DNA of 64,000 bases from Natronolimnobius baerhuensis (GTDB taxonomy: Archaea > Halobacteriota > Halobacteria > Halobacteriales > Natrialbaceae): the NCBI RefSeq assembly GCF_002177135.1, contig NZ_MWPH01000003.1, forward strand, positions 1 to 64,000, given 5' to 3'. Each line of letters opens with the position of its first letter. Position 1 is the stretch's first letter. The notes beneath the pieces are model-generated. The model saw only the letters and a program-made list of their open reading frames with translations, did no database searches and was not told the origin of the DNA. The position numbers and the translations under genes were made by a program. Below are positions 18,438-62,860 of the stretch, piece by piece.

Positions 18438-20146
18438 AGTGTGTATCGCTGTGCGAGCGCGACGCGCTCGGCTGGGTCGCATGTCGCTGGTTCGCCGTCG
18501 ATCGACACCTCGAACGTCTGCGAGTCGACATCGACGGACGGGCTGTACGTGTTGTGAACGAGGTCATCGGTCGAGAGCGACCGCGTATTTGCGACGGGAA
18601 GCGTCATCGAGGAGAGACCGTACGCGTCGCCGATGTCCGCGTCGTAGGCCTGCTGGCTGACGAACTGGACGCTCGTTGCATGCTTTGCTGAGCCGAAGGC
18701 ACCGTACTGAGGCCGTTGCATCATCGGCTCGCAGGTCATCAACGAGGCGTTTGCCTCGCCCATCGAGGCGTACGCGGGGAAGCCACCTTTGATGACGACC
18801 TCGGGTTGCAGCCCGAAGAAGGCCGGCTTCCAGAGTACGATATCTGCGAGTTTCCCCGGCTCGAGGCTGCCGACGTAGGTGTCGATTCCCGCCGTGATCG
18901 CCGGGTTGATCGTGTACTTCGCCAGATAGCGCTTGATTCGGAAGTTGTCGTTGTCGCTGTCCGCATCGGGCTCGAGCGGCCCGCGCTGTTGTTTCATCTT
19001 ATCCGCAGTCTGCCAGGTTCGGGAGATCAGTTCGCCCATCCGCCCCATCGCCTGGGAGTCAGTCGTCATCATCGCGATTGCGCCCTTGTCGTGGAGTACG
19101 TCTTCTGCGGCAATCGTTTCGGCACGAATGCGTGACTCGGCAAACGCGACATCCTCCGGTACGTCCGGGTTCAGGTGATGACAGACCATCACCATGTCCA
19201 GGTGCTCGTCGAAGGTGTTCTCCGTGTAGGGCATCGACGGGTTCGTCGACGAGGGCAGCATATGCTTCTTCCCGACCAACTCGAGTACGTCGGGTGCGTG
19301 ACCGCCCCCAGCGCCCTCGATGTGGAACGCATGGATCGTCCGGCCGTCGATGGCGTCGAACGTGTGCTCGACGAAGCCGGACTCGTTCAGCGTGTCCGTG
19401 TGAATCGCCACCTGCACACCGGTCTCGTCGGCGACCTCGAGACAGGTGTCGATGACGGCCGGCGTGGCACCCCAGTCCTCGTGGATCTTCAGTGCAACCG
19501 CGCCGGCGTCGACTTGCTCGTGGATGACTGCGGGTTTCGAGGAGTTGCCCTTGCCGTAGAAGCCGAAGTTAATTGGCCAGGCCTCAGCCGCTTTCATCAT
19601 CAGTTTCAGGTTTCGCGCGCCGCTCGTGATGATGCCGACCGTCGATGGGCCGACGCCGCCGCCGAACATCGTCGTTATGCCCGATGCGATGGCGTGAGTC
19701 GGCAACTGTGCGGAGTTGAAGTGAACGTGAGCGTCGATACCACCCGCGGTCGCGATCAGTCCCTCCGCGGAGATAACCTCGGTGTTCGCGCTGACGATCA
19801 ACTCGTCGTCGACATCGTTCATCGTCTCTGGATTGCCGGCGTTACCAACGCCCGCGATGTAGCCGTCTTTGATGCCGATGTCGGCTTTCTGAATTCCGAG
19901 GACTGGATCGAGAATGGTCAGGTTCGTCAGCACCCAGTCAAGCGCACCCTCCTCGGCCGTAAATCCCGGCTTGAGTCCGAGGCCGTCGCGAAGCGTCTTT
20001 CCGCCACCAAAAACGGCTTCGTCTCCGCGAGCAATCTGATCGTGCTCGATTTCCGCGATCAGCGACGTGTCCGCAAGCCTGACCTGATCGCCCGTCGTCG
20101 GCCCGTACAGGTCGGCGTACTCGCCAGCCTCGAGATCGCGTGTCAT
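18434..20146 (-). CDS. ureC: Urease alpha subunit UreC, second copy
   Basis: This 570-residue paralog of the upstream ureC hydrolyses urea at a dinickel site if active. Metal ligands and catalytic residues are all present: His140 and His142 (DAHVHF), carbamylatable Lys220 and His222 (LKIHEDWG), His249 (AIHTDTLNE), His275 ([10 protein letters not shown]), flap His323 (VCHHLNPD), Arg339 (FAESRIR) and Asp363 (TTDSQAMGR). It differs from normal ureases around residues 165-180, where the usual ATTCTPGP is replaced by [12 protein letters not shown]. It overlaps the first ureC and ureA by four bases each. It may be a neofunctionalised subunit, a dosage copy or part of a mixed enzyme. Confidence 0.93.
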
Positions 20147-21849
20147 AGCAAGTACCGCTGGGCCAGTGGAATTTCGTCGGCTGGATCGCAGGTGACGTGT
20201 TCGCCGTCAACTTCAACCTCGAAGGTCTGTGCGTCGATGTCGATGTCGTCTGGACAGTGATCGTTATGCAACATATCTGATTTCTCGACGGATCGCGTTC
20301 CGGAAACCGGTTCGACGGGCGTTTTCAGGTCGTAGGCCTCGCCGACGCCGTTCTCGGCGGCAGCCTCGCTGACGAACGTCACGGAGAGACCGTGTTTCGC
20401 TCGCCCCTGCGCGCCGGCGCGTTCCCGTCCTTTCACCGGTTCGCAGGTCATCAGCGAGCCGTTGGCTTCGCCCATCTGAGACCAAACTGGGAAGCCGCCC
20501 TTGATGACCGCCTTCGGCTTGACCCCGAAGAAGGCCGGCTTCCAGAGCACGATATCCGCGAGTTTGCCGGGCTCGAGGCTGCCGACGTAGTCGTCGATCC
20601 CCGCCGTAATCGCCGGGTTGATCGTATATTTCGCGACGTAGCGCTTGATTCGGGCGTTATCGGCCTCGCTTCCCTCGTCGGCCTCGAGCGGCCCGCGTTG
20701 ATTCTTCATCTTGTGGGCAGTCTGCCACGTTCGGCTGATGACTTCGGCCATCCGACCCATCGCCTGCGAGTCCGAGGTCATCATCGAAATCGCGCCGGTG
20801 TCGTGGAGCACGTCCTCCGCGCCGATGGTCTCCGCGCGGATGCGCGACTCGGCGAAGGCGACGTCTTCGGGCACGTCGGGGTTCAGGTGATGACAGACCA
20901 TCACCATATCCAAGTGTTCGTCGAAGGTGTTCTCCGTGTAGGGCATCGACGGGTTCGTCGACGACGGCAGCATGTGCTCGTAGCCGATCAACTCGAGCAC
21001 GTCGGGTGCGTGACCGCCCCCAGCGCCCTCGATGTGGAACGTGTGGATCGTCCGGCCGTCGATGGCGTCGAAGGTGTGTTCGACGAAGCCGGACTCGTTC
21101 AGCGTGTCCGTGTGGATACAGACCTGCACGTCTTCCTCGTCAGCGACCTCGAGGCAGGTGTCGATTGCGGCGGGCGTCGACCCCCAGTCCTCGTGGAGTT
21201 TGAGTCCGGCGACGCCAGCCTCGATCTGCTCGTAGAGGGAATCAGGCTGACTGCTGTTTCCTTTGCCGTAGAAGCCGACGTTGACCGGCCACTCCTCGGC
21301 GGCCTGCAGGAATCGCTTGATGTTTTCGGGACCAGGCGTACAGGTCGTTGCACCACCGCCGAAGCCGCCGCCGAACATCGTCGTGATCCCTGAAGCGACC
21401 GCGTGATCGACGAGTTGCGGGCTGTTGAAGTGGACGTGAATATCGAGCGCACCGGCCGTCGCGATCAGCCCGTCAGCCGGAATGGTATCGGTGCTCGCGC
21501 CGATGACCATATCCACGTCGTCCATCGTATCGGGATTGCCGGCCTTGCCGACGCCGACGATCTCGCCGTTTCGAACGCCAATGTCACCCTTTCGTACGCC
21601 GAGGACGGGGTCAATGATGACGACGTTCGTAAACACCCAGTCGAGGGTGCCCTCGGCCTGTGTCGTGCCCGACTGCATCCCCATCCCATCGCGCATCGTC
21701 TTCCCGCCGCCGAAAACCGCCTCCTCGCCGGGAACCGTGTGATCCGTTTCGATCTTCGCGAACAGATTCGTATCACCGAGTCGGAGCCGATCCCCTTCTG
21801 TCGCGCCGAACAGGTCCGTATACTCGCGTCTCGAGAGGTCCCGGCTCAT
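20143..21849 (-). CDS. ureC: Urease alpha subunit UreC, first copy
   Basis: This 568-residue catalytic subunit is numbered as in Klebsiella urease from Lys217 onward. Ligands are His138 and His140 (DIHVHF), Lys217 and His219 (LKLHEDWG), His246 (CIHTDTLNE), His272 ([10 protein letters not shown]) and Asp360 (TSDSQAMGR). Catalytic His320 and Arg336 are present. Unlike the second copy it keeps ATTCTPGP near residue 167, so it is the more canonical one. It overlaps ureB and the second ureC by four bases, which gives a fully coupled operon. The two copies are very similar in the central catalytic region and more diverged toward both ends. Confidence 0.95.
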
Positions 21850-22238
21850 TCGTCACCGTCCTCCGCCGAGAGATAGCCACGCTCTCGAGCGCGGTCCATC
21901 GCCCGTGTTTTCACGTCTTCATCGTCGAGGTCGCCGTTGACGAGCCCGCCCATTCCGTGGACGATCCGGTCGCCGCCGATAGCGACGAGGGCAACGTCGC
22001 GCTCGCACCCAGGCTCGAATCGAACGGCCGTGCCCGCCGGGATATCGAGTCGCATGCCGTAGGCACTCTCGCGGTCGAACGCAAGGCCGGGATTGACCTC
22101 GAAAAAGTGAAAGTGCGAGCCAACCTGTGCGGGGCGGTCACCGGTGTTTTCGACCGTAACGGTCGCCGTTTCCCGTCCCTCGTTAATACGAACAGGCTCG
22201 TCTGCTGGGCGCAACTCACCCGGAATTCGGTCACTCAT
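21846..22238 (-). CDS. ureB: Urease beta subunit UreB
   Basis: This 130-residue structural subunit starts at [13 protein letters not shown] and is the first gene of the urease operon. Family motifs are visible: [23 protein letters not shown] and [18 protein letters not shown]. An acidic C-terminal stretch ends in SAEDGDE. It overlaps the following ureC by four bases. The operon promoter should lie in the AT-rich gap separating it from the divergent urea transporter. Confidence 0.93.
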
Positions 22239-47450: not shown

Positions 47451-48197
47451 ATGGGACCCGATAGCGAATCGAGCCACGAATGCGGCGACGATTCTGACGA
47501 CAGCGAGCACGATATTCTCGAGGAGTTGCTCGCGGGCAATCGCCACCACGTCGACGCCTTGCCGGAAGACTACTTCGCGGACGTTCAGGTGGACCAGCAC
47601 CCAGGCATCGTCGCCATCTCCTGTTCGGACTCGCGGGTGCCACAGGAAGATATGTGGGGCGTCGACCATCCGGGACAGGTCTTTACGCCGAGCAACATCG
47701 GCAATCAGGTCTGGGATGACGACAACGGCGAGCGGATCGTCGACGGCGGGTTGCTCTATCCGATCCATCACACGGACACCGAGGTCGCGGCTGTCGTCGG
47801 CCATACCGGCTGTGGAGCTATCACCGCAGCCTATCGCGTCGCAATGGGCGAACCGCTACCCGGTCCTCAGGGCGTTGATAAGTGGGTCCGCATGCTCGTT
47901 CCCGTCGTCGAGGACGCCCTCGAGAGCGGCCTGATCGACACTGACGCGGACGATGAACTGGTGGTCAACCAACTCGTCGAGTACAACGTCGACCACCAGG
48001 CGCGGTTCCTCCGCGAGTCCGCGGACGTCCCAGACGACGTCGACATCTACGGCTTCGTGTACGACTTTCAGGGCATCTACGGGAACGACTACGGCTGCAC
48101 GTACCTGGTCAACGTAAACGGGGAGACCGATCCCGACGAGATCACCGAGCAGATTCCCGCGACGTACGAGGCAGTCGCCCAAAGTCTGCTATACTAA
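47451..48197 (+). CDS. Beta-class carbonic anhydrase
   Basis: This 248-residue zinc enzyme interconverts CO2 and bicarbonate. Zinc ligands are visible as Cys58 in SCSDSRVP (with Asp60 and Arg62), His118 and Cys121 in GHTGCGA. The acidic start MGPDSESSHECGDDSDDSEH is haloarchaeal. It lies just before a small membrane protein and converges with dabA, so it could complete an inorganic-carbon uptake or retention system. Confidence 0.93.
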   Translation: MGPDSESSHECGDDSDDSEHDILEELLAGNRHHVDALPEDYFADVQVDQHPGIVAISCSDSRVPQEDMWGVDHPGQVFTPSNIGNQVWDDDNGERIVDGGLLYPIHHTDTEVAAVVGHTGCGAITAAYRVAMGEPLPGPQGVDKWVRMLVPVVEDALESGLIDTDADDELVVNQLVEYNVDHQARFLRESADVPDDVDIYGFVYDFQGIYGNDYGCTYLVNVNGETDPDEITEQIPATYEAVAQSLLY

Positions 48198-48268
48198 CCA
48201 GATCCCCGCAAGCCGAGAAAATCCGAACGTCGGTACTGTTTTGGCGACTCGAGGCGAATTTTCAGCCA

Positions 48269-48487
48269 ATGCGAGACCGATTCGAGTCCGATATCGGCTT
48301 CTACTACGCCGTTGGGACGTTCACGGCCGCGATATTCATCCTCGCTCTGGTGGCGCTGGCCGTGCTCTCACCTGCCGGAATTGGGACGGTCGAACTCGGC
48401 GGTCTCGTCGTCGGCTTCCTGCTGTTTATGCTGGTTTACTTCGTCTCCGTAACCGTCCACCAACTCGAGGAGCGCGAAGGACTGTAG
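48269..48487 (+). CDS. Small two-helix membrane protein
   Basis: The protein has 72 residues with two hydrophobic helices, at about 12-34 and 42-62, and a charged C-terminus (QLEEREGL). It lies 71 bases after the carbonic anhydrase and ends eight bases from the convergent dabA. The neighbourhood suggests a link with bicarbonate handling, but nothing in the sequence shows it. Confidence 0.65.
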   Translation: MRDRFESDIGFYYAVGTFTAAIFILALVALAVLSPAGIGTVELGGLVVGFLLFMLVYFVSVTVHQLEEREGL

Positions 48488-48494
48488 CTGTCAA

Positions 48495-51002
48495 TCAGTT
48501 CATTGCCGGCGCGACCGGCGAGTCCCACTCGAGGTCGCCCTGATAGTGGAACGCCTGATTGTCTTGCTCGGGGTCGATAACCGTCAGCCCGCCGATCCAG
48601 TCATTGTCAAGCAACTGCGTGACATCATCGTGGCGGCTGAGAATGTCGGTCACGCGCTCGAGTGGCGCGTGGATCACAGTCGAGAGACGCAGCGGCTGAT
48701 GATACGGCTGGTCGTCGTCGATCTTGAGCGACTGCAGCGGTAGGCCGGTCATTAGGTCGCCGCCGTTGCCCTGGACGACACCGACGTTCCCGACTGGGTT
48801 CTGCGTGACCTTCGAGCCGCTGCCGTAGACGCCGTTGTCGACGGTCGCGAAGTAGTACTGGCTGTTGATCCACTGCGTGACCACGAGCGGCCCCGTCAGA
48901 ATGGCCTCGAGTGCGTCGCCTTCGGCGTCGGTCGTCCAGTCGTAGGAGTGGAGGAATGCGCGCCCGTCCAGATTCTCACCCTCGGTCAACTCACGCGGGC
49001 CGATGACGAACGAGGCGTTGCCGGCCAGCCCCCACTCCGGGCGGGTCTCCGCCCAGTCAGCGGACTTGCGCTCGACCTCCTCGACGGCCGTTTCGGGGTC
49101 GGGGTCGTCCGCATCAGTCATCGACTCGAGGCGTTCGGCGGCTGCGCCAGCTTGAGCGCGCTCGAGGTCAGCACGGAGTTGCTCGAGGTCCTCGTGGTGG
49201 CTCTCGGGGACGTCGCCGTCGAACAGCGTAATCTCGTCGGTCGTCGTGTCATGTTCGCCAGCGAGGAAGACGGTGTCCTCAGGGATGTGGAAGCCGCGCT
49301 CACGGAGTTCGGCTGTGACGTTCTCGTCGTTACAGATAGTCGCGAGCACGCGGGCGTTCGGCCCGCCGGCATTGCCGGCACAGGCCCCGCAGTCGAGACT
49401 CGAGCCGAAGGGGTTGTTCGTCGTGTGGCTCGCATGGCCCGTAAAGACAACCAAGCGGGCGAACTCGGTCCAACCCATGAGCTCGAAGGCGGTTTCGGCG
49501 TAGGAGACTTTCTCCTCGAAGGTCATCCCCTGCGGAAGGTCGTGATCCGCGTGCGTGTGATCGTCGTGCTCATGGGCCTCGAGGGTCGGTGTACAGACCT
49601 CGCCGGGACTGGGAACGCGCTCATCAACGGCGCGACGGAGTTTCGCGACCGTCGAGGGGAACAGCGTGCGCGTGGCCATCGCTGAGCCGTAGGCACCGCC
49701 AGCGCCCTCGACAAACGGGAAGGCGGCGACGGCATGGGTCTTGAGCTGTTTGAAGTGCTTCCGGGTCGCGGTCGTCAGACCAGTCCAGCGCTCGCGGGCG
49801 GCGACATCGTCGTCTGCTTCGGCCGGCTGGTCGACGATGCGGTGCTGGGCGTCGACAATTGGCGGACACGCGTCGGTCTCGGCAGCCGAGTCATGGCCCT
49901 GATAGCGCATCGGGACGCCGAAGAAGCCTGCGTAGCCGTGCGTCTCGTAGCCGCCCTGGCCCTCGAGGTGACGGCGGATGATCTCCGAGCGCGTGTCGAT
50001 GCAGAACACGAACTGGGCCGCCGGTCGCGCGTTGTCGCCAGCCGTCGACGGATCAGTTACCGAGGTGTCGATGTTGGCCAGCAGGCGCTCGCGGTAGCTA
50101 CGCTCCCAGGCCGTCAGCCAGCAGTCTGCGAGTGGCTCCGTCTCGAGAGTCGTCTCCTCCGCCGAATCGGATTTTGTTTCGAGTTCGAGTGGCGCGTCCA
50201 GCAGGTCAACGAGCATCAGGCGGACTGCGAGGTACTCGCGCAGGGTGATTGGATACTCAGTCTGCCAGGGGTCAGTGTCATCCGCAGCGCGTTGCTTGAT
50301 GAGTCCGGTCCAGCCCGGCAGCGCAGCGAGGTGGTGTTCTGCGATATCGGTCCAGCGGCTTTCGGGGGCGTCGGTGAGGATCGACTCGAGCGCCTCGAGT
50401 GCAGTCTCGGGAAGCGCTTTGGAGTCGTCACAGGGGACGTTGCTGTCAAGGGGCGCGACTGCGCGCCAGGCAGCGTAAAATCCCTCGTCACGGTCAGGCA
50501 TCGGCCAGGCGGCCCTGCCCTCGTCGACGAACGCGGCGAGCCACTTCGAGAGCACCCGGTCAACGGCCTCCGTTGCGGGGTCGGTATCGGCCTCGGCTGC
50601 TTGTGCTGCGTCAGCGTCGGCTAGCTCCTCGAGCAACGTCTCGGGGTCGCCGTCGATGCCGTGAGACTCGAGTTCGTCCGCTAGAATCTCGGGACTGATC
50701 TGTCCGTTCTCCCAAGCCTGCCGGAAGACTGCGGGCGTTGGATAACCGCGGCCGCCGAACAGCCGTTCGGCCTCGGCGACGGCCTCGTGGAACGGGTGGT
50801 CTTCGAACCCCGAGAGCGGATTAGCGGTGACGAACGAGTGGATCGGCCAGACCGCCCCGATTCGCTCGGCCGCACGGTCGATGCTGTCATCGATGTAGTC
50901 GCCAAGTTGGGACGACTGCGAGTGCTCGCGGGACTTGGTGGTCAGTTGCTGTGCGGACTGGGACTCGGACTCGAGGTGGGTTTGGGATTGCTGGCTAGAC
51001 AT
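48495..51002 (-). CDS. dabA: Inorganic-carbon transporter subunit DabA (DUF2309)
   Basis: This 835-residue protein is the carbonic-anhydrase-like cytoplasmic subunit of the DAB complex, which traps CO2 as bicarbonate using a cation gradient. The zinc site is visible: Cys334 and Asp336 in FCIDTRSE, His523 in FTGHASHTTNNPF and Cys538 in LDCGACAGNAGG, in near-identical positions to bacterial DabA (Cys351, Asp353, His524, Cys539). It contains a His-rich insertion (EHDDHTHADHD, about residue 478). It overlaps dabB by eight bases. Confidence 0.92.
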   Translation of the reverse strand: MSSQQSQTHLESESQSAQQLTTKSREHSQSSQLGDYIDDSIDRAAERIGAVWPIHSFVTANPLSGFEDHPFHEAVAEAERLFGGRGYPTPAVFRQAWENGQISPEILADELESHGIDGDPETLLEELADADAAQAAEADTDPATEAVDRVLSKWLAAFVDEGRAAWPMPDRDEGFYAAWRAVAPLDSNVPCDDSKALPETALEALESILTDAPESRWTDIAEHHLAALPGWTGLIKQRAADDTDPWQTEYPITLREYLAVRLMLVDLLDAPLELETKSDSAEETTLETEPLADCWLTAWERSYRERLLANIDTSVTDPSTAGDNARPAAQFVFCIDTRSEIIRRHLEGQGGYETHGYAGFFGVPMRYQGHDSAAETDACPPIVDAQHRIVDQPAEADDDVAARERWTGLTTATRKHFKQLKTHAVAAFPFVEGAGGAYGSAMATRTLFPSTVAKLRRAVDERVPSPGEVCTPTLEAHEHDDHTHADHDLPQGMTFEEKVSYAETAFELMGWTEFARLVVFTGHASHTTNNPFGSSLDCGACAGNAGGPNARVLATICNDENVTAELRERGFHIPEDTVFLAGEHDTTTDEITLFDGDVPESHHEDLEQLRADLERAQAGAAAERLESMTDADDPDPETAVEEVERKSADWAETRPEWGLAGNASFVIGPRELTEGENLDGRAFLHSYDWTTDAEGDALEAILTGPLVVTQWINSQYYFATVDNGVYGSGSKVTQNPVGNVGVVQGNGGDLMTGLPLQSLKIDDDQPYHQPLRLSTVIHAPLERVTDILSRHDDVTQLLDNDWIGGLTVIDPEQDNQAFHYQGDLEWDSPVAPAMN

Positions 51003-52491
51003 CGTTGTACTCCTCTTTGGTGGTGAGGACGGTCGACGGATCCGGCTGGGAGCGGTTCAACAGGAAGACGTAGAGACGCGTGCTCGAGCGGTGCCAGCTG
51101 AACTCCGTCGCGAGATACGCGCCGACGAATAGGGCGAGTGCGAGGAAGTGTGCGACCGTCAGTTCTGTCGGTGCGTCGGCCATCGGCACGCCTGAGAGTA
51201 TCGCCGATATCGCGTTGTACAGCAGGGCGTATCCAGTGATCGCGGTCAGCACGACGGTCGGCACGGCGGCGACTCTGAGCGCCGACGAGAGGACGGTCCG
51301 ATGGAGGATGTCCCGCGCCGCGGTCAACGTCGTCAGGACCACGACGAGTACGAGGATTGTGCCGCTGTCGAACGCCAGCAGCGGTTTGCCGGTGAGCGTG
51401 GCGAACACCACTCCGGCACCAATGGCCGTGAGCAGGCTGATGGCGACGCTCGAGACGCCGGTCTCGGTCGATTTGGATTTGTTGGGAACGGTTTGTTCGA
51501 CTGCAGCGCCGGCAGAGAGGAAGAGGTAGGCCTTGTAGAAGCCATGAAGGATGAGGTGGGCGATTGCGGCGGCGAAAAAGCCAAGCCCACATTGCATGAT
51601 CATAAAGCCCATCTGGGCGATTGTCGAACTGCCGAGTTTGCGCTTGATGTCGGTCTGGACGAGCCCCATTGCCTGGCCCAGCAGCGCGCTGACCGCGCCG
51701 ATGAGGACGACGGCCGACATGACGGCAATCTCGAGGGTGACGACCGGCGCGAACCGGGTCAACAGGATGCCGCCCGCGTTGACGAAGCCGGCGTGCATCA
51801 GCGCGGACGCCGGCGTCGGAGCCGTCATTGAGGAGAGTAGCCAGTTGTGGAAGGGAAAGAGGGCGGACTGGATCAACGCCGCGAGGACGAGCGCACTGAC
51901 GGCGACGAGTGCGACAGTCATCGAGAGTTCGTCTGCCTGCGCGAGAATCCCGCTAATTGTGGTCGTCCCTGTCGCCCAGGCCAGCAGGCCCAGACTGCCG
52001 GCAAGCAACGCGCTGCTGGCGAGGAAGTACCGACGGGCCAACGCGGCCGCGGCTCGAGCCTGCGTCCAGTCGCGAACGTGGCCGATGAGGGCGGCCATCA
52101 GCAGCCCCATCGCGAGCCACGCCGCCGCGAATAGCGCGACGTGGTTGGCTGCCGTCATCGTCATCACGACGAGTGTAAACCCGAACACGCGGGCGTAGAA
52201 CAACTCGAGATCGCGGTCGCCCGCCATGTAGCGCCGAGAGTAGCTGTGGACGATGCCGCTGAAGAAGGTGACGACGACCCACATGACCGCGGTCAGGCCG
52301 TCGACCACCAGCACGTTCGAAACAGCCCATTCTCCCCCTCGCAGCGCTGCGAGAGCGAGGACGCCGACGCTCAGACAAAAGAGCGCCCAGATCGACCAGG
52401 TCGATGCCCGGGGGATGACCGAAGACGGCTGGCTCGTCGTCTCGGCGAGTTGTACGGAATCTGGGTCGCGTGAATCGTTGTCCACTGTCAT
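50995..52491 (-). CDS. dabB: DabB, proton-channel-like subunit of the DAB complex
   Basis: This 498-residue integral membrane protein has about thirteen hydrophobic segments and belongs to the NuoL/Mrp antiporter-like family. Segments such as FFSGIVHSYSRRYM, LFPFHNWLLSSMTAPTPASALMHAGFVNAGG and a lysine-bearing GLVQTDIKRKLGSSTIAQMG are visible. It supplies cation flow to DabA. The start at 52491 (MTVDNDSRDP) is preferred; the upstream extension is nonsense. It heads dabB-dabA, downstream of an Lrp gene on the same strand with a 272-base gap. Confidence 0.92.
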   Translation of the reverse strand: MTVDNDSRDPDSVQLAETTSQPSSVIPRASTWSIWALFCLSVGVLALAALRGGEWAVSNVLVVDGLTAVMWVVVTFFSGIVHSYSRRYMAGDRDLELFYARVFGFTLVVMTMTAANHVALFAAAWLAMGLLMAALIGHVRDWTQARAAAALARRYFLASSALLAGSLGLLAWATGTTTISGILAQADELSMTVALVAVSALVLAALIQSALFPFHNWLLSSMTAPTPASALMHAGFVNAGGILLTRFAPVVTLEIAVMSAVVLIGAVSALLGQAMGLVQTDIKRKLGSSTIAQMGFMIMQCGLGFFAAAIAHLILHGFYKAYLFLSAGAAVEQTVPNKSKSTETGVSSVAISLLTAIGAGVVFATLTGKPLLAFDSGTILVLVVVLTTLTAARDILHRTVLSSALRVAAVPTVVLTAITGYALLYNAISAILSGVPMADAPTELTVAHFLALALFVGAYLATEFSWHRSSTRLYVFLLNRSQPDPSTVLTTKEEYNDV

Positions 52492-52763
52492 TCGTTGGGT
52501 GGTCCTCCGACCAGTACGGCGTTTTCGCCGGGTATCCAACCTGTCTCCGGGGAAACGGGTGTACGGACTGGTCTTCGCTACAACCACATTGAACAGAGCG
52601 GTTATTATACTCTTCTATTCGAACAAACTGTTCGCCATAAGCCAAGTTAAAGAACATTATGGTCCTTATATGTGGTATAGGAGACTGTCTCTGAGTCGTG
52701 AAACTCTAATAAAAGTATGGAACCAGTACTCGAGCGAACACTCAGTTACTGTTGACCGGCGAC

Positions 52764-53228
52764 TCACTCGCCCGAGAAGTCGTCGAACGTCGTCGTCTCG
52801 TGGCTGCGGACGAGTACCTCGTCGGTGATCGTCAGCCCCAGATCCGACAGGTCCTGTGCGACCGGCGTGATGTCCCTGTCCGTCTCGCCGATGGCCGTCA
52901 CGAGCAGGTTCTCCTCGCCGGTGACGAGTTCCTGCACCGAAATAACCCGCGGAATGTCCAGAATGTCCTCGCGGTACTCGCCGCGTTCGGGAATCGGGGC
53001 CGTACAGAACAGCAGCATCCGGATTGGATACCCCGACCGCGTGTAATCGATCTCCGTACTGTAGCGCTTGATGATCCCCTCCGATTCGAGGCGCTGGATA
53101 CGCTTTCGGACCGTACTCGAGGATGCATCGGTCCGCTCGGCGATTTCACTCGAGGAGAGATTTCGCGCCTCCTCCTGAAGTGCATAGAGGATCTCCCGAT
53201 CCACCGCGTCGAGTTCGTACTCCGTCAT
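52764..53228 (-). CDS. Lrp/AsnC-family transcriptional regulator
   Basis: This 154-residue regulator has an N-terminal helix-turn-helix (LSSSEIAERTDASSSTVRKRI, about residues 20-42) and a C-terminal ligand-binding RAM domain (VQELVTGEENLLVTAIGETD). The start MTEYELDAVDREIL at 53228 is the family-like beginning. A CTTATAGG element at 53250-53257 suggests a leaderless transcript. Close palindromes lie in its upstream region (53299-53336). It is upstream of dabBA and may regulate it. Confidence 0.9.
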   Translation of the reverse strand: MTEYELDAVDREILYALQEEARNLSSSEIAERTDASSSTVRKRIQRLESEGIIKRYSTEIDYTRSGYPIRMLLFCTAPIPERGEYREDILDIPRVISVQELVTGEENLLVTAIGETDRDITPVAQDLSDLGLTITDEVLVRSHETTTFDDFSGE

Positions 53229-53298
53229 AGACGGTGGATTCGGCGGGAGCCTATAAGGGGCTTCGGCTGTCGGAACCGGCGACGGCGGACCCGTCATG

Positions 53299-53336
53299 CT
53301 CGAGTCGTACTCAGTCGCGGTACGACTCGAGTCGTA
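53299..53336. promoter_or_regulatory. Palindromic operator cluster between lrp and cspA
   Basis: The 38-base site contains three copies of the half-site GAGTCGTA (or its complement), at 53302-53309, 53321-53328 and 53329-53336. The last two form a perfect 16-base palindrome (53321-53336). In addition 53299-53310 and 53320-53331 form a perfect 12-base inverted repeat. It ends two bases before the cspA TATA box, so a regulator bound here would affect cspA. Autoregulation by the adjacent Lrp is the simplest idea. Confidence 0.5.
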
Positions 53337-59954: not shown

Positions 59955-60027
59955 GGCCAGTTTCCAGTGGTTTCTGTTCCACTGAGACGAGACTGGTATT
60001 TATAATCCAGCAGTGTGAGTGACAACT

Positions 60028-60249
60028 ATGTCGGAATTTCCGGAAACGAAAGAGGTTCCTTGCCCATTTTGTGACGATACTGTTGAGATTGAGCTGATCG
60101 ATCCTGAACGTGGTGAGTACGAGGAAGTACCCCCGGATGGTCACTTCTGTGGTGATGAACCTAATATGGTTGAGATCAGCGGTAACGAAGATCGTGACCC
60201 TGCCCCAGAATTATCTTCAGAACCACCAAGACCGCCTGAAGAAAGATAG
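60028..60249 (+). CDS. Small zinc-binding protein
   Basis: This 73-residue protein has CPFC at residues 12-15 and a later HFC, a likely Cys2His-Cys zinc site, and ends with a Pro/Glu/Arg-rich tail. A TATTTATAAT block at 59998-60007 places transcription near the ATG at 60028, supporting this start over the GTG at 60019. It is downstream of rep and faces the AT-rich gene. Role unknown. Confidence 0.6.
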   Translation: MSEFPETKEVPCPFCDDTVEIELIDPERGEYEEVPPDGHFCGDEPNMVEISGNEDRDPAPELSSEPPRPPEER

Positions 60250-61122
60250 TTATCCTATATTCTGAAGTGAGGCTTTTCTAGCTGATTCACCATCGTCGTT
60301 GATCCAAATTGGTGAATCAAATAGGTCGCTCACGTCCTTTGTTTCTTCGACAAAGACCGTTCGTACTGGGAATTCCTCCGTGTATTCATCACCATAGACA
60401 TCTTCATAACTCACCTTGAATTGAATATATACTATTTCTATCCCATCCTCTTTTAAATATTCCAGTAGTTTACTGAAGACTATTATTCCGGGCTCACCAC
60501 CATTTCCATTAATAATATCTCTCACGGATTTATTTTTATTCGAAAAATCCACCCGGTATTCAAATCGACCACTGGAACCTTCCCGTAATATTCCTCCAGA
60601 AGGATTCATACCAGAACCTTTGACATCATTATTTTTGTATATTCCAGATGGTTGTGTTTCCAATGGTGGAACGGACGAATTAGAAATTAGTTGTGGTATC
60701 TCTGTGTCGGTTGCAGTATTAACCCCTAATTCGGGTATGCATATATCCGCCTGGAATTTTATATTATACGCTGTCCCTTCACCAATATTTTCGAGTTTAA
60801 AGGACACGAGACTATGCTTGCCAAGGGCTTCGAAATCGTTAATTTGACGAAGAACTGGTCTTGAACGGGCCCGTTGATGTTTAATTTGCTGCTGTTGATG
60901 CTTGATTAGTTTCTCATTCTGTTTAATAGTCCCAAAAGTAAACCATGCTAACATTAATGTTCCAAATGCACCCATTGCACTCGCAATGACACTCATATTT
61001 TGGACTGATACCCATCCAGCGAATTCATTCAGTATTATTAAAGATAATAGAATAGCGAAAGACAAAAACATCAAATTTGCAGAAATCTCATATGCCTTCT
61101 TTATGATTTTACCTACGTCCAT
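60250..61122 (-). CDS. AT-rich hypothetical membrane protein (possible accessory gene)
   Basis: This 290-residue protein has two hydrophobic helices at about residues 15-32 and 43-66, a Gln/Lys/His coiled stretch (KQNEKLIKHQQQQIKHQR) and a beta-rich soluble C-terminal domain. Its base composition and basic character are unlike the host's genes, pointing to foreign origin. It follows the repressor gene by two bases on the same strand, so the two are probably cotranscribed. Roles in immunity or phage defence are possible, but nothing in the sequence proves it. Confidence 0.65.
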   Translation of the reverse strand: MDVGKIIKKAYEISANLMFLSFAILLSLIILNEFAGWVSVQNMSVIASAMGAFGTLMLAWFTFGTIKQNEKLIKHQQQQIKHQRARSRPVLRQINDFEALGKHSLVSFKLENIGEGTAYNIKFQADICIPELGVNTATDTEIPQLISNSSVPPLETQPSGIYKNNDVKGSGMNPSGGILREGSSGRFEYRVDFSNKNKSVRDIINGNGGEPGIIVFSKLLEYLKEDGIEIVYIQFKVSYEDVYGDEYTEEFPVRTVFVEETKDVSDLFDSPIWINDDGESARKASLQNIG

Positions 61123-61124
61123 TT

Positions 61125-61466
61125 TTATCCATTCCTCTCTGGATTGATTGACCAGTCATCATTCTCGGGCAGTACTCTTCCTTCAAGGAATTCCATACCT
61201 TCTTCTGTGATTTTATATCTACCTCTTCCAGTCTTTTTGACGTAGCTCGCTGCTTGTAGAGTGTTCAATCGGCGAGAAATTGCTTCTCTAGATTTATCTG
61301 TGTTATCTGCTATGATTTTCGGAGACAGAATAAGCCCCCTACCTAATGCATCCATTATCTGAAGATCAGTTTCTGTCATCCAATCTGGCTGCTTTAATAC
61401 TCGGAACGACCCGATCTCAATCCAATCATCGGGGTCAGTGTCTTCAAACAGATCTTCATCACTCAT
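61125..61466 (-). CDS. PhiH1-type winged-helix repressor
   Basis: This 113-residue protein has a winged helix-turn-helix: LQIMDALGRG, SREAISRRLNTLQAA as recognition helix and a wing with GRGRYKITEEGMEFLEG. Haloarchaeal PhiH1-like repressors have the same shape and control lysogeny in phage PhiH. The start codon is at 61466, divergent from the integrase, separated by a palindrome at 61520-61535. A TTTTTAGG element on the minus strand (61489-61496) would make the transcript leaderless. Confidence 0.8.
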   Translation of the reverse strand: MSDEDLFEDTDPDDWIEIGSFRVLKQPDWMTETDLQIMDALGRGLILSPKIIADNTDKSREAISRRLNTLQAASYVKKTGRGRYKITEEGMEFLEGRVLPENDDWSINPERNG

Positions 61467-61519
61467 TGGGAGATGCTTAACAGTGAACCCTAAAAAGTGA
61501 CTGCCTCTTTTGAGACCGT

Positions 61520-61535
61520 GATCGTGATCACGATC
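61520..61535. promoter_or_regulatory. Perfect 16-base palindromic operator
   Basis: GATCGTGATCACGATC is its own reverse complement. It lies between the repressor gene and the zinc-finger/integrase genes, with extra GTGAT half-sites at 61518-61522 and 61524-61528 and later around 61538 and 61554. A TATA-like GGTTATATT at 61560-61568 follows. This is the natural binding site for the adjacent repressor. Confidence 0.6.
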
Positions 61536-61624
61536 TAGTGATAACGTTTATGTGGTGATGGTTATATTCTCGATATGCGGAACTACCCAGCAGGGTGACG
61601 ATGATTCTGTAGGGAAGTGAAGGA

Positions 61625-61699
61625 GGCCAGCGCTGCAACGCTGGCCCGAGGTGGTTCCATCAGGAATCCATGAGTGGAACCAGTCAGGGGCAAAGCCCC
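61625..61699 (+). repeat. Cluster of three tandem hairpins
   Basis: Stem 1 is 61625-61632 with 61639-61646 (8 bases). Stem 2 is 61652-61659 with 61675-61682 (8 bases, loop 15). Stem 3 is 61687-61691 with 61695-61699 (5 bases, loop AAA). All are perfect. The ATG at 61670 of the small zinc ORF lies in the loop of the second. They may control translation or be recombination arms. Confidence 0.5.
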
Positions 61700-61828
61700 A
61701 ATGAAAGAGACAGGTGCATCGCAGATAACTTCAGTGGGACATGTGTCTGCTGCGGCGATCGAGCTGAAGGAATTGATGCTCAGGGTCCAGCTGCATCGTG
61801 CCGGGATTGCGCTACGAAGCGGTGGTGA
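61670..61828 (+). CDS. Small zinc-finger ORF before integrase
   Basis: A 52-residue frame with CVCCGDRAEG and CRDCA, a likely Cys4 zinc finger, starts at ATG 61670 and ends TGA 61828, seven bases before the GTG of the integrase. An in-frame stop at 61610-61612 closes the upstream side. The position suggests it is cotranscribed with the integrase and could be an excision or regulatory factor. No family is recognised. Confidence 0.6.
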   Translation: MSGTSQGQSPNERDRCIADNFSGTCVCCGDRAEGIDAQGPAASCRDCATKRW

Positions 61829-61834
61829 CCTACT

Positions 61835-62860
61835 GTGGTTGAACCTGAGGAACTCCCTCCACGCGAAGCCTGGCACCGTTACCTCAACGGTCGCCGCACA
61901 GAGCTGACAGAGGAAACTGCGTCGACGTACCACTACCGGCTGAAACTCTTCGCCGAGTGGTGCGAAGACAACGGGATCGAGACGGTTGCTGACCTGAACG
62001 GCTGGGTCCTCGACGAGTACGAGTCCTACCGGGCCGGGCAGGACGTCGCCTCGACGACGCTCCACAACGAGATGGAGACGCTGAAGAACTTCATCGAATA
62101 CCTTGAACGAATCGAGGCCGTCGACGACGATCTTGCCGACCGGGTGAACGTTCCGCACGTTCCCCGCGGCGAACGGTCCCGCGAAACGCGGTTGTCGACC
62201 GACCGCGCGCTCGCGCTGATCCGGCACTACCGCTCGACCGACGCGGTGCACGGGTGTCGACGGCACGCGCTGCTCGAAACGGCGTGGCACACCGGCGCGC
62301 GACTCGGTGGCCTTCGAGCGCTGGATCTCCGCGACTTCAATCGCGAAGAGCAGACGGTCGAGTTCATCCACCGGCCAGAATCGGGAACGGTCCTGAAGAA
62401 TAAGCGCGAGGGCGAACGTGTAGTCGCGCTGAACGAGCGGGTCTGTGAGACGATCGGGACGTACATCCAGACCGATCGGTACGACGTACACGACGACCAC
62501 GGCCGCCAGCCACTATTCTCGTCGCTGCAGGGTCGTCCGAACCCGAACACGATTCGTGTCTGGATGTACCTCGCGACATTCCCCTGTGTCCAGGGCGAGT
62601 GCCCGCACAGGTACGATCCCGATTCCTGCGAGTTCCGGAATCACTCGAAGGCCAGTCAGTGCCCCTCGTCACGTGCTCCGCACCACGTCCGGACGGGTTC
62701 GATCACGTGGCACTGCGATCGAGGTGTCCCCCGCGAGGTGACCGCTGAGCGGGTGAACGCCTCCCAGGACGTGATCGATGAATACTACGACAAAGCCGAG
62801 GAGCGCGACCGGATGGAAAAGCGCCGCCGACCCCACCTTAATAAACTCACCATCGAATAA
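61835..62860 (+). CDS. int: Tyrosine-type integrase
   Basis: This 341-residue recombinase has an N-terminal SAM-like DNA-binding domain (TASTYHYRLKLFAEWC) and the catalytic domain. Catalytic residues are Arg156 (HTGARLGGLRALD), a lysine around 188-190, His283 and Arg286 (HHVRTGS), His293 and the tyrosine 317/318 (DEYYDK). A zinc-like cluster of Cys251, Cys256, His258, Cys265, His270 and Cys276 precedes HxxR. The start is GTG 61835. The gene is next to attR and intact. Confidence 0.88.
   Translation: MVEPEELPPREAWHRYLNGRRTELTEETASTYHYRLKLFAEWCEDNGIETVADLNGWVLDEYESYRAGQDVASTTLHNEMETLKNFIEYLERIEAVDDDLADRVNVPHVPRGERSRETRLSTDRALALIRHYRSTDAVHGCRRHALLETAWHTGARLGGLRALDLRDFNREEQTVEFIHRPESGTVLKNKREGERVVALNERVCETIGTYIQTDRYDVHDDHGRQPLFSSLQGRPNPNTIRVWMYLATFPCVQGECPHRYDPDSCEFRNHSKASQCPSSRAPHHVRTGSITWHCDRGVPREVTAERVNASQDVIDEYYDKAEERDRMEKRRRPHLNKLTIE

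Follow-up and report, generated by a model that had tools for sequence, protein, structure and literature searches.

DAB systems were first described as carbon-concentrating devices of autotrophs and later in heterotrophic bacteria too. One such system is encoded in a 64,000-nucleotide stretch of the haloarchaeon Natronolimnobius baerhuensis (contig NZ_MWPH01000003.1, positions 1 to 64,000; the whole stretch is called the window here), where dabB and dabA lie beside a gene for carbonic anhydrase (CA). The closest described complex is DAB2 of Halothiobacillus neapolitanus (PDB 9rd0, 9rd8 and 9rd9). The zinc ligands of its DabA2 subunit are C351, H524 and C539, its dyad is D353/R355, and its finger residue is E444; in DabB, S256, H260, K310, S316, H339, H343 and K347 are named as key residues (PMC13144422). 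Mutants at the zinc-ligand, dyad, finger and proton-path residues are mostly impaired, Leu658 mutants are unimpaired, and disruption of the K235/D185 ion pair cut growth yield by 30-60% (PMC13144422). MpsAB of Staphylococcus aureus is also a DAB homologue in a heterotroph. It supplies bicarbonate, and two reports describe MpsAB and CA as interchangeable in staphylococci (PMC8552792; PMC6689103); Na+ coupling has been proposed for it. Within the same class and family of systems, dabAB of Haloferax volcanii (HVO_2410/HVO_2411) is a predicted CO2 transporter, the passages on it mentioning no regulator, operator or CA (PMC8305020), and dabAB has also been noted for class Halobacteria (PMC10880623). 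Both haloarchaeal dabAB and a CA gene beside mpsAB in Firmicutes are already in print.

The window probably carries a complete, regulated DAB module consisting of an AsnC/Lrp-type regulator (here called DabR), an operator, dabB and dabA, with the CA gene belonging to a separate and partly redundant unit. As in DAB2, dabB and dabA form a pair with domains PF00361 and PF10070, overlapping here by 8 bp. The dabA product covers model positions 1-747 of 747 in PF10070 and aligns with DabA2 (9rd0_A, E 3e-116), its sole PDB sequence relative at E up to 0.001, and the dabB product matches 9rd0_B (E 6.6e-36). Judged from these alignments and the conserved residues described below, the locus encodes a predicted DAB-type CO2 hydratase, a pump type that is already known. 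A reading of the DNA made from the letters alone (the sequence-only reading) had named CA, a small membrane protein, dabA and dabB within 47451-52491. All four genes are there, with CA and the small membrane open reading frame (ORF) on the forward strand and dabA and dabB on the reverse strand, so that CA and dabA converge; that reading had placed dabA opposite CA and the small membrane protein. The extent proposed for the module stops one gene early, leaving out the regulator gene and the putative operator before dabB (Table 1). The CA itself is of the canonical kind among beta-carbonic anhydrases (PF00484): all inspected active-site residues (Q, C, D, R, H, C, N) and the CxDxR and HxxC motifs are present, and no signal peptide is evident by eye. 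The small membrane ORF, which looks like a two-helix protein, matches nothing in Pfam or NCBIfam (E 0.001).

Conservation was surveyed in 121 haloarchaeal loci, that is, the window plus 120 loci fetched as a genus-spread subset of the listed dabA places (those of G007, G013, G044, G046, G054 and G059 were placed from a separate scan). Three loci from a further contig scan and loci L246-L248 were left out. DabA C334, D336, R338, H523 and C538 are intact in the window, in keeping with the earlier claim that the zinc-site residues are kept. Together with the finger residue Glu432 and L659, the equivalent of DAB2 Leu658, they are invariant in 121/121 loci. The loss of zinc ligands in relatives that was to speak against the pump is therefore not seen. 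DabB S229, H233, K283, S289, H312, H316 and K320, the equivalents of seven DAB2 proton-path residues, are likewise invariant in all 121. Haloarchaeal DAB thus has in common with DAB2 the zinc Cys2His site, the Asp-Arg dyad, the finger Glu, a Leu at the Gln/His position and the seven proton-path Ser, His and Lys residues. In contrast to DAB2, the window's genome lacks RuBisCO and has an AsnC/Lrp-type regulator gene adjoining the pair.

This regulator gene lies upstream of dabB, in the same direction, in 119 of the 121 loci. Neither exception (G046, G218) can show the gene, as its contig starts too near dabB, and the A2 profile finds no strong regulator match elsewhere in either genome. A2, an alignment of 29 regulator proteins that left out unpicked rows and three mis-trimmed ones (L072, L093 and L123), was run against a draw of 292 haloarchaeal genomes, which samples the class rather than covering it. 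At a cut-off of E up to 1e-55 it matches 184 of these genomes, comprising 183 of the 188 with dabA and a single one of the 104 without. The dabA-bearing genomes lacking a match are the same two exceptions, G059, in which a weaker match adjoins dabB, and G227 and G288, whose dabA matches are themselves fragments (best E 1e-15 and 1e-18). The window's DabR is 66-87% identical to the 28 other rows and has an AsnC-type helix-turn-helix (PF13412, PF13404) and matches PDB structures of Lrp proteins. For a C-terminal RAM/AsnC ligand domain there is no Pfam match at E 0.001, and some PDB profile matches reach positions 117-140; the predicted model is weak (pLDDT 60.5). DabR resembles the archaeal Lrp/AsnC regulators PH0140 (PDB 9w4v) and PH1519 (2cyy) in its N-terminal helix-turn-helix and general length, but forms a tight, separate group tied to dabBA. 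No description of DabR, its operator or the Asp-less CA paralogue discussed below was found in searches covering open-licence PMC papers.

LysR proteins regulate bacterial DAB genes. Seven bacterial plasmid copies, hand-chosen from 40 listed of 123 records, were compared. In five of them (Leisingera, Pantoea, Dysgonomonadaceae, Ideonella and Salinivibrio) the annotation places a divergent LysR gene ahead of dabB; none is annotated there in the Staphylococcus and Mycolicibacterium records. Nor does the annotation of the Staphylococcus pettenkoferi copy, a relative of MpsAB, show an AsnC regulator in the surrounding 4 kb or so. In the Mycolicibacterium aubagnense plasmid, dabB-dabA is followed (L250, 6511-7450) by a small regulator-annotated protein that may be PII-like and by a CA with an intact CxDxR motif. 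As a separate observation, an amidohydrolase-like gene of about 338 residues sits on the opposite strand between the regulator and dabB in 22 of the 121 haloarchaeal loci, in several families (for example L081 and L115; also at L205:2325-3341); it was named by eye, with Pfam run on one copy.

Upstream of dabB lies a candidate operator. Within the 320 bp before dabB, the exact dyad GAAC-N5-GTTC occurs in 44 of the 121 loci (mean 1.2, maximum 4 in 200 first-order resamplings). Pairs of dyads spaced 29-32 bp, with two mismatches allowed per dyad, occur in 103 of the 121 upstream regions (mean 4.6, maximum 11 in 200 resamplings), a count that overstates the independent support because these regions are of related sequence. 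The histogram of dyad spacings over the loci has a sharp peak at 30 bp. A spacing of three helical turns would suit a multimeric protein of the Lrp type bound to a single face of the DNA. In the window alone, exact single dyads stand at chance level (2 found, 1.65 expected), so that the case for the operator depends on phasing and conservation. In the 3.9 Mb genome to which the window belongs, the strict pair pattern is found a single time, at the dabB site. In 2.44 Mb of fetched loci there are 57 near-perfect pairs in the 320 bp upstream of dabB, a further 5 in the gap between regulator and dabB, and 8 elsewhere. Nearly all CA genes lack such an array: phased pairs precede 2 of 98 CA ORFs (one divergent, one in a dabA-lacking genome) and none of the 31 convergent CAs. 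With no phased pair before 96 of 98, control of CA by the dabB operator was rejected. Single dyads with at most one mismatch precede 8/31 convergent CAs, 6/40 CAs in dabA-lacking genomes, 2/2 co-directional upstream, 0/8 divergent and 0/5 co-directional downstream CAs, 2/9 ORFs of the degenerate paralogue and 0/3 other CAs.

Table 1. Features of the window, with positions counted from its first nucleotide (aa, amino acids)
Feature	Position	Strand	Evidence or remark
CA, canonical beta-carbonic anhydrase, 248 aa	47451-48197	+	Pfam Pro_CA (PF00484), 86 bits; PDB beta-CA matches
Small membrane ORF, 72 aa	48269-48487	+	Two hydrophobic stretches (hydropathy); CA-side homologues in dabA-lacking relatives
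dabA, 835 aa, predicted cytoplasmic zinc subunit of a vectorial CO2 hydratase	48495-51002	-	PF10070, 897 bits
dabB, 498 aa, predicted NuoL/Mrp-like proton-conducting membrane subunit	50995-52491	-	PF00361, 137 bits; PF00662; 9rd0_B
Putative dabB operator array	52591-52664	-	Dyads GAAC-N5-GTTC phased by 30 and 31 bp
Dyad, 2 mismatches	52591-52603	-	Upstream of dabB
Dyad, exact GAAC-N5-GTTC	52621-52633	-	Upstream of dabB
Dyad, 1 mismatch	52652-52664	-	Upstream of dabB
DabR, AsnC/Lrp-type regulator, 154 aa, first gene of the cassette	52767-53228	-	HTH_24 and AsnC-type helix-turn-helix; counted from the Met conserved in relatives; ORF scanned as 52767-53309; stop codon 52764-52766
Urease, alpha-type ORF	18440-20146	-	Urease alpha N-terminal domain plus amidohydrolase
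Urease, alpha-type ORF	20149-21849	-	Urease alpha N-terminal domain plus amidohydrolase
Urease, beta subunit	21852-22238		About 25 kb from the dab locus
Low-GC stretch	60001-62000		GC fraction 0.44
Integrase-like ORF	61829-62857		At the edge; named by eye
Perhaps an integrated element	60001-62857		

Of the 121 loci, 54 have a CA homologue no more than 5 kb from dabA, and the other 67 have none that near. Chance adjacency was rejected, as only about 0.3 linked loci are expected (10 kb in 3.5 Mb). With the limit at 5 kb, G158 (7 kb) and G040 (11 kb) are scored as unlinked, as is G240, which lies at about 4.5 kb by one measure and just over 5 kb by the coordinates used. The linked genes stand in five kinds of arrangement: 31 follow dabA and converge with it, 8 precede the regulator and diverge from it, 8 lie immediately before dabB, 5 follow dabA in the same direction and 2 precede the regulator in the same direction; eight of the 54 are the degenerate paralogue. 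Linkage changed at least 16 times on the DabA tree. To the question whether dabAB and CA stay together in other Halobacteria, the answer is yes in part: they do so in 27 of the 33 loci from the family of the window (Natrialbaceae) and recurrently elsewhere, but not in the 67 loci without a nearby CA.

Within this family, CA, the small membrane gene and a cold-shock gene (csp) form a recurring locus. Forty CA loci were fetched from dabA-lacking genomes, 20 of them from the window's family, and in 14 of these 20 the three genes are contiguous in this order on one strand (small-protein homologues come from a single-pass search). In 29 of the 33 dabA-carrying family loci, the dab cassette stands beside csp; the small gene is either absent or found on one or the other side of the cassette. 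In a 37-row tree with four outside rows, these 29 cassettes form one supported DabA clade, so that two independent insertions are not needed; the simplest reading of the sequences is one acquisition followed by losses. The two cassette orders relative to the small membrane gene may reflect a later rearrangement. In G208 the CA gene is gone from the locus and dabAB is kept, and that genome has no beta-CA match. The small membrane protein was considered as a third DAB subunit, like hneap_0908, and rejected since it goes with CA; by gene neighbourhood it belongs with CA, not with dabAB.

Across the 292 genomes, 161 have both dabA and a beta-CA, 27 dabA only, 102 a CA only, and 2 neither, where 10.3 would be expected. 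Haloferax volcanii, a control of the searches, matches both. The complementarity is significant over all genomes (Fisher p 3.6e-4), but is weak after relatedness is considered (p 0.08 with each of the 14 CA-less genera counted as one), and the counts cover beta-CA, not gamma-CA. The tendency would agree with the reports that MpsAB and CA can replace each other in staphylococci. Because CA generally lacks the phased operator and is kept where dabAB is absent, CA and dabAB look like alternative bicarbonate sources and not one machine.

The function of a DAB system in this organism is suggested by its gene content. The window's own genome (G000) has no match for RuBisCO (PF00016) and contains two carboxyltransferase genes and one phosphoenolpyruvate (PEP) carboxylase gene, all for bicarbonate-using enzymes; bicarbonate supply for carboxylations is thus the likely role, with CA as a passive alternative. 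The sequence-only reading had offered the same role for a heterotroph, and this is the best reading of what was found. Its further suggestion, that DAB works with CO2 released by urease, has nothing behind it beyond shared residence in the window. In the proposed mechanism, DabB would let protons run down the membrane gradient, and this flow would act through the DabA membrane finger (Glu432) on the DabA zinc site, which would hydrate CO2 in one direction to give cytoplasmic bicarbonate for PEP carboxylase and biotin-dependent carboxylases. DabR would bind the phased dyads just upstream of dabB and switch dabBA with inorganic-carbon status. CA and the small membrane protein would act as a unit of their own, bringing CO2 and bicarbonate into equilibrium at no energy cost, redundant in part with the pump and not a subunit of it. 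The gene identities, the conserved residues, the co-occurrence of the regulator, the phasing of the operator and the loci lacking the cassette are observed; we infer the hydratase activity and the coupling ion, as well as the binding of DabR, the signal it answers to and the direction of its effect.

Several observations weigh against this interpretation, in addition to the relatedness of the upstream regions and of the CA-less genera and the restriction of the counts to beta-CA. A strict pair search of 41 genomes gave 22 rows, of which 5 lie before dabB and 17 elsewhere, 8 of the latter in the single genome G017, mostly one repeated sequence; the pair stands before dabB in only 5 of the 13 dabA-bearing genomes in that set. 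We infer DabR binding to the phased dyads from position and phasing alone. In 120 of 121 haloarchaeal DabB proteins, the residue equivalent to DAB2 K235 is Gln (residue 208 in the window), and a coupling detail may therefore differ from DAB2. Finally, no DAB experiment for any haloarchaeon was found.

Four other explanations were considered. CA and DAB could form one inorganic-carbon module, as the sequence-only reading had it, with CA feeding or buffering the pump, perhaps with urease CO2. Linkage in 54 loci where about 0.3 would arise by chance, at least 16 changes and five arrangements argue for such a module, as do the Mycolicibacterium order of dabBA, one small gene and then CA, and a CA gene just downstream of mpsAB in several Firmicutes, reported in PMC8552792. 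We nevertheless consider a single module rather unlikely, because CA, the small protein and csp are contiguous in 14 of 20 dabA-lacking family loci, 27 dabA-bearing genomes have no beta-CA match, and phased operators stand before dabB and are absent before 96 of 98 CAs (0/31 of the convergent ones). Established reasoning on carbon-concentrating mechanisms also holds that free CA in the cytosol would work against a pump that accumulates bicarbonate. Moreover, staphylococci that co-expressed MpsAB and CA grew no better for it (PMC8552792). The AsnC/Lrp gene, for its part, could encode a global regulator whose place beside dabBA is incidental. AsnC paralogues are numerous in haloarchaea, with 16 AsnC-family regulators counted in Natrialba magadii (PMC3403918); an orphan copy lies by CO dehydrogenase genes in a genome without dabA, and other genomes also have the strict pair at sites not next to dabB. 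A near-perfect co-occurrence (183/188 with dabA against 1/104 without) and a strict operator pair that is single in the window's own genome make this explanation unlikely.

Haloarchaea live in molar NaCl, and dabAB could instead be an Na+/HCO3- symporter, as proposed for MpsAB, or mainly a device for pH or sodium homeostasis. Sodium use has been argued for MpsAB (discussed in PMC13144422), and the change of K235 to Gln, with no basic residue at that site in the Staphylococcus pettenkoferi and Leisingera copies either, points the same way. At this site the seven bacterial plasmid copies have K, K, R, R, R, A and P, so that Gln is a haloarchaeal signature at a position that varies throughout the family; the positions of DAB2 R182 and D185 are mostly Leu (87/121) and mostly Ser (99/121) in haloarchaeal DabB. 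The zinc site and the finger Glu, which are needed for DAB2 function, are fully kept, and DAB2 does not need sodium (PMC13144422); a symporter or a homeostasis device of this kind is accordingly improbable. The last alternative is that DAB serves CO2 fixation or recycling through RuBisCO, its role in autotrophs. The RuBisCO large-subunit family occurs in 105 of the 292 genomes, and 75 of these also have dabA, compared with 113 of the 187 others, a weak association (odds ratio 1.6, p 0.07). Since 113 of the 188 dabA-bearing genomes have no RuBisCO match, bicarbonate supply outside RuBisCO must be common in the class. For the window's genome, a RuBisCO link was rejected for want of a PF00016 match, and the explanation as a whole is highly improbable. 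A regulated DAB module beside a separate CA unit is the preferred account.

All eight CA homologues found directly before dabB are a degenerate paralogue and not an ordinary CA. A profile of seven of these proteins matches 11 of the 292 genomes at 247 bits or more, with the next match at 171 bits (loci L124, L138, L200, L205, L137, L132, L045, L080, L076, L211 and L212). All 11 genomes have dabA, and none of the 104 dabA-lacking genomes has the paralogue (p 0.009). In 11/11 it lies just upstream of a co-directional dabB frame (the last three dabB genes identified by eye), with a 173-residue reverse ORF between the two in G102, and in 10 of the 11 genomes a second profile match is another CA. 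Intact copies keep the C..H..C zinc ligands, whereas the Asp of CxDxR is replaced by Met or Leu and its Arg is retained only in G078. The catalytic Asp is lost in 10/10 intact copies; the eleventh (G100) is broken. The predicted fold is that of a beta-CA (pLDDT 79.8; Foldseek probability 1.00, TM about 0.5). One example, WP_128478739.1 of Halorussus pelagicus (plasmid NZ_CP035120.1), is annotated simply as carbonic anhydrase.

The only dabA-lacking genome with a DabR-type gene is G045 (L245, 7623-11061), which has neither a DabA nor a beta-CA match. Its orphan gene adjoins a gene of the Prismane/CO-dehydrogenase family and a CooC-like ATPase gene (finer names by eye). No near-perfect operator pairs were found near these CO-dehydrogenase genes, and one weak pair lies about 9 kb away. 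A tentative and, in our view, somewhat doubtful extension is that haloarchaea have an inorganic-carbon circuit of their own, in which DabR would be a CO2 or bicarbonate sensor acting on the 30-bp-phased operator, the dead, zinc-binding beta-CA would be a DAB accessory or sensor, and the orphan would be a reused copy. If so, the G045 gene would represent the same sensor on another CO2-related pathway. An apparently dedicated regulator whose candidate operator has been mapped offers a handle on archaeal inorganic-carbon sensing, and the Asp-less paralogue, given its tie to dabB, could serve as a natural probe for DAB assembly or control.

Two minor features lie elsewhere in the window (Table 1). 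The two adjacent urease alpha-type ORFs, each with both domains and of usual length, stand beside one beta gene and are apparent tandem alpha subunits. Near the far end, a stretch of low GC content and an integrase-like ORF perhaps mark an integrated element.

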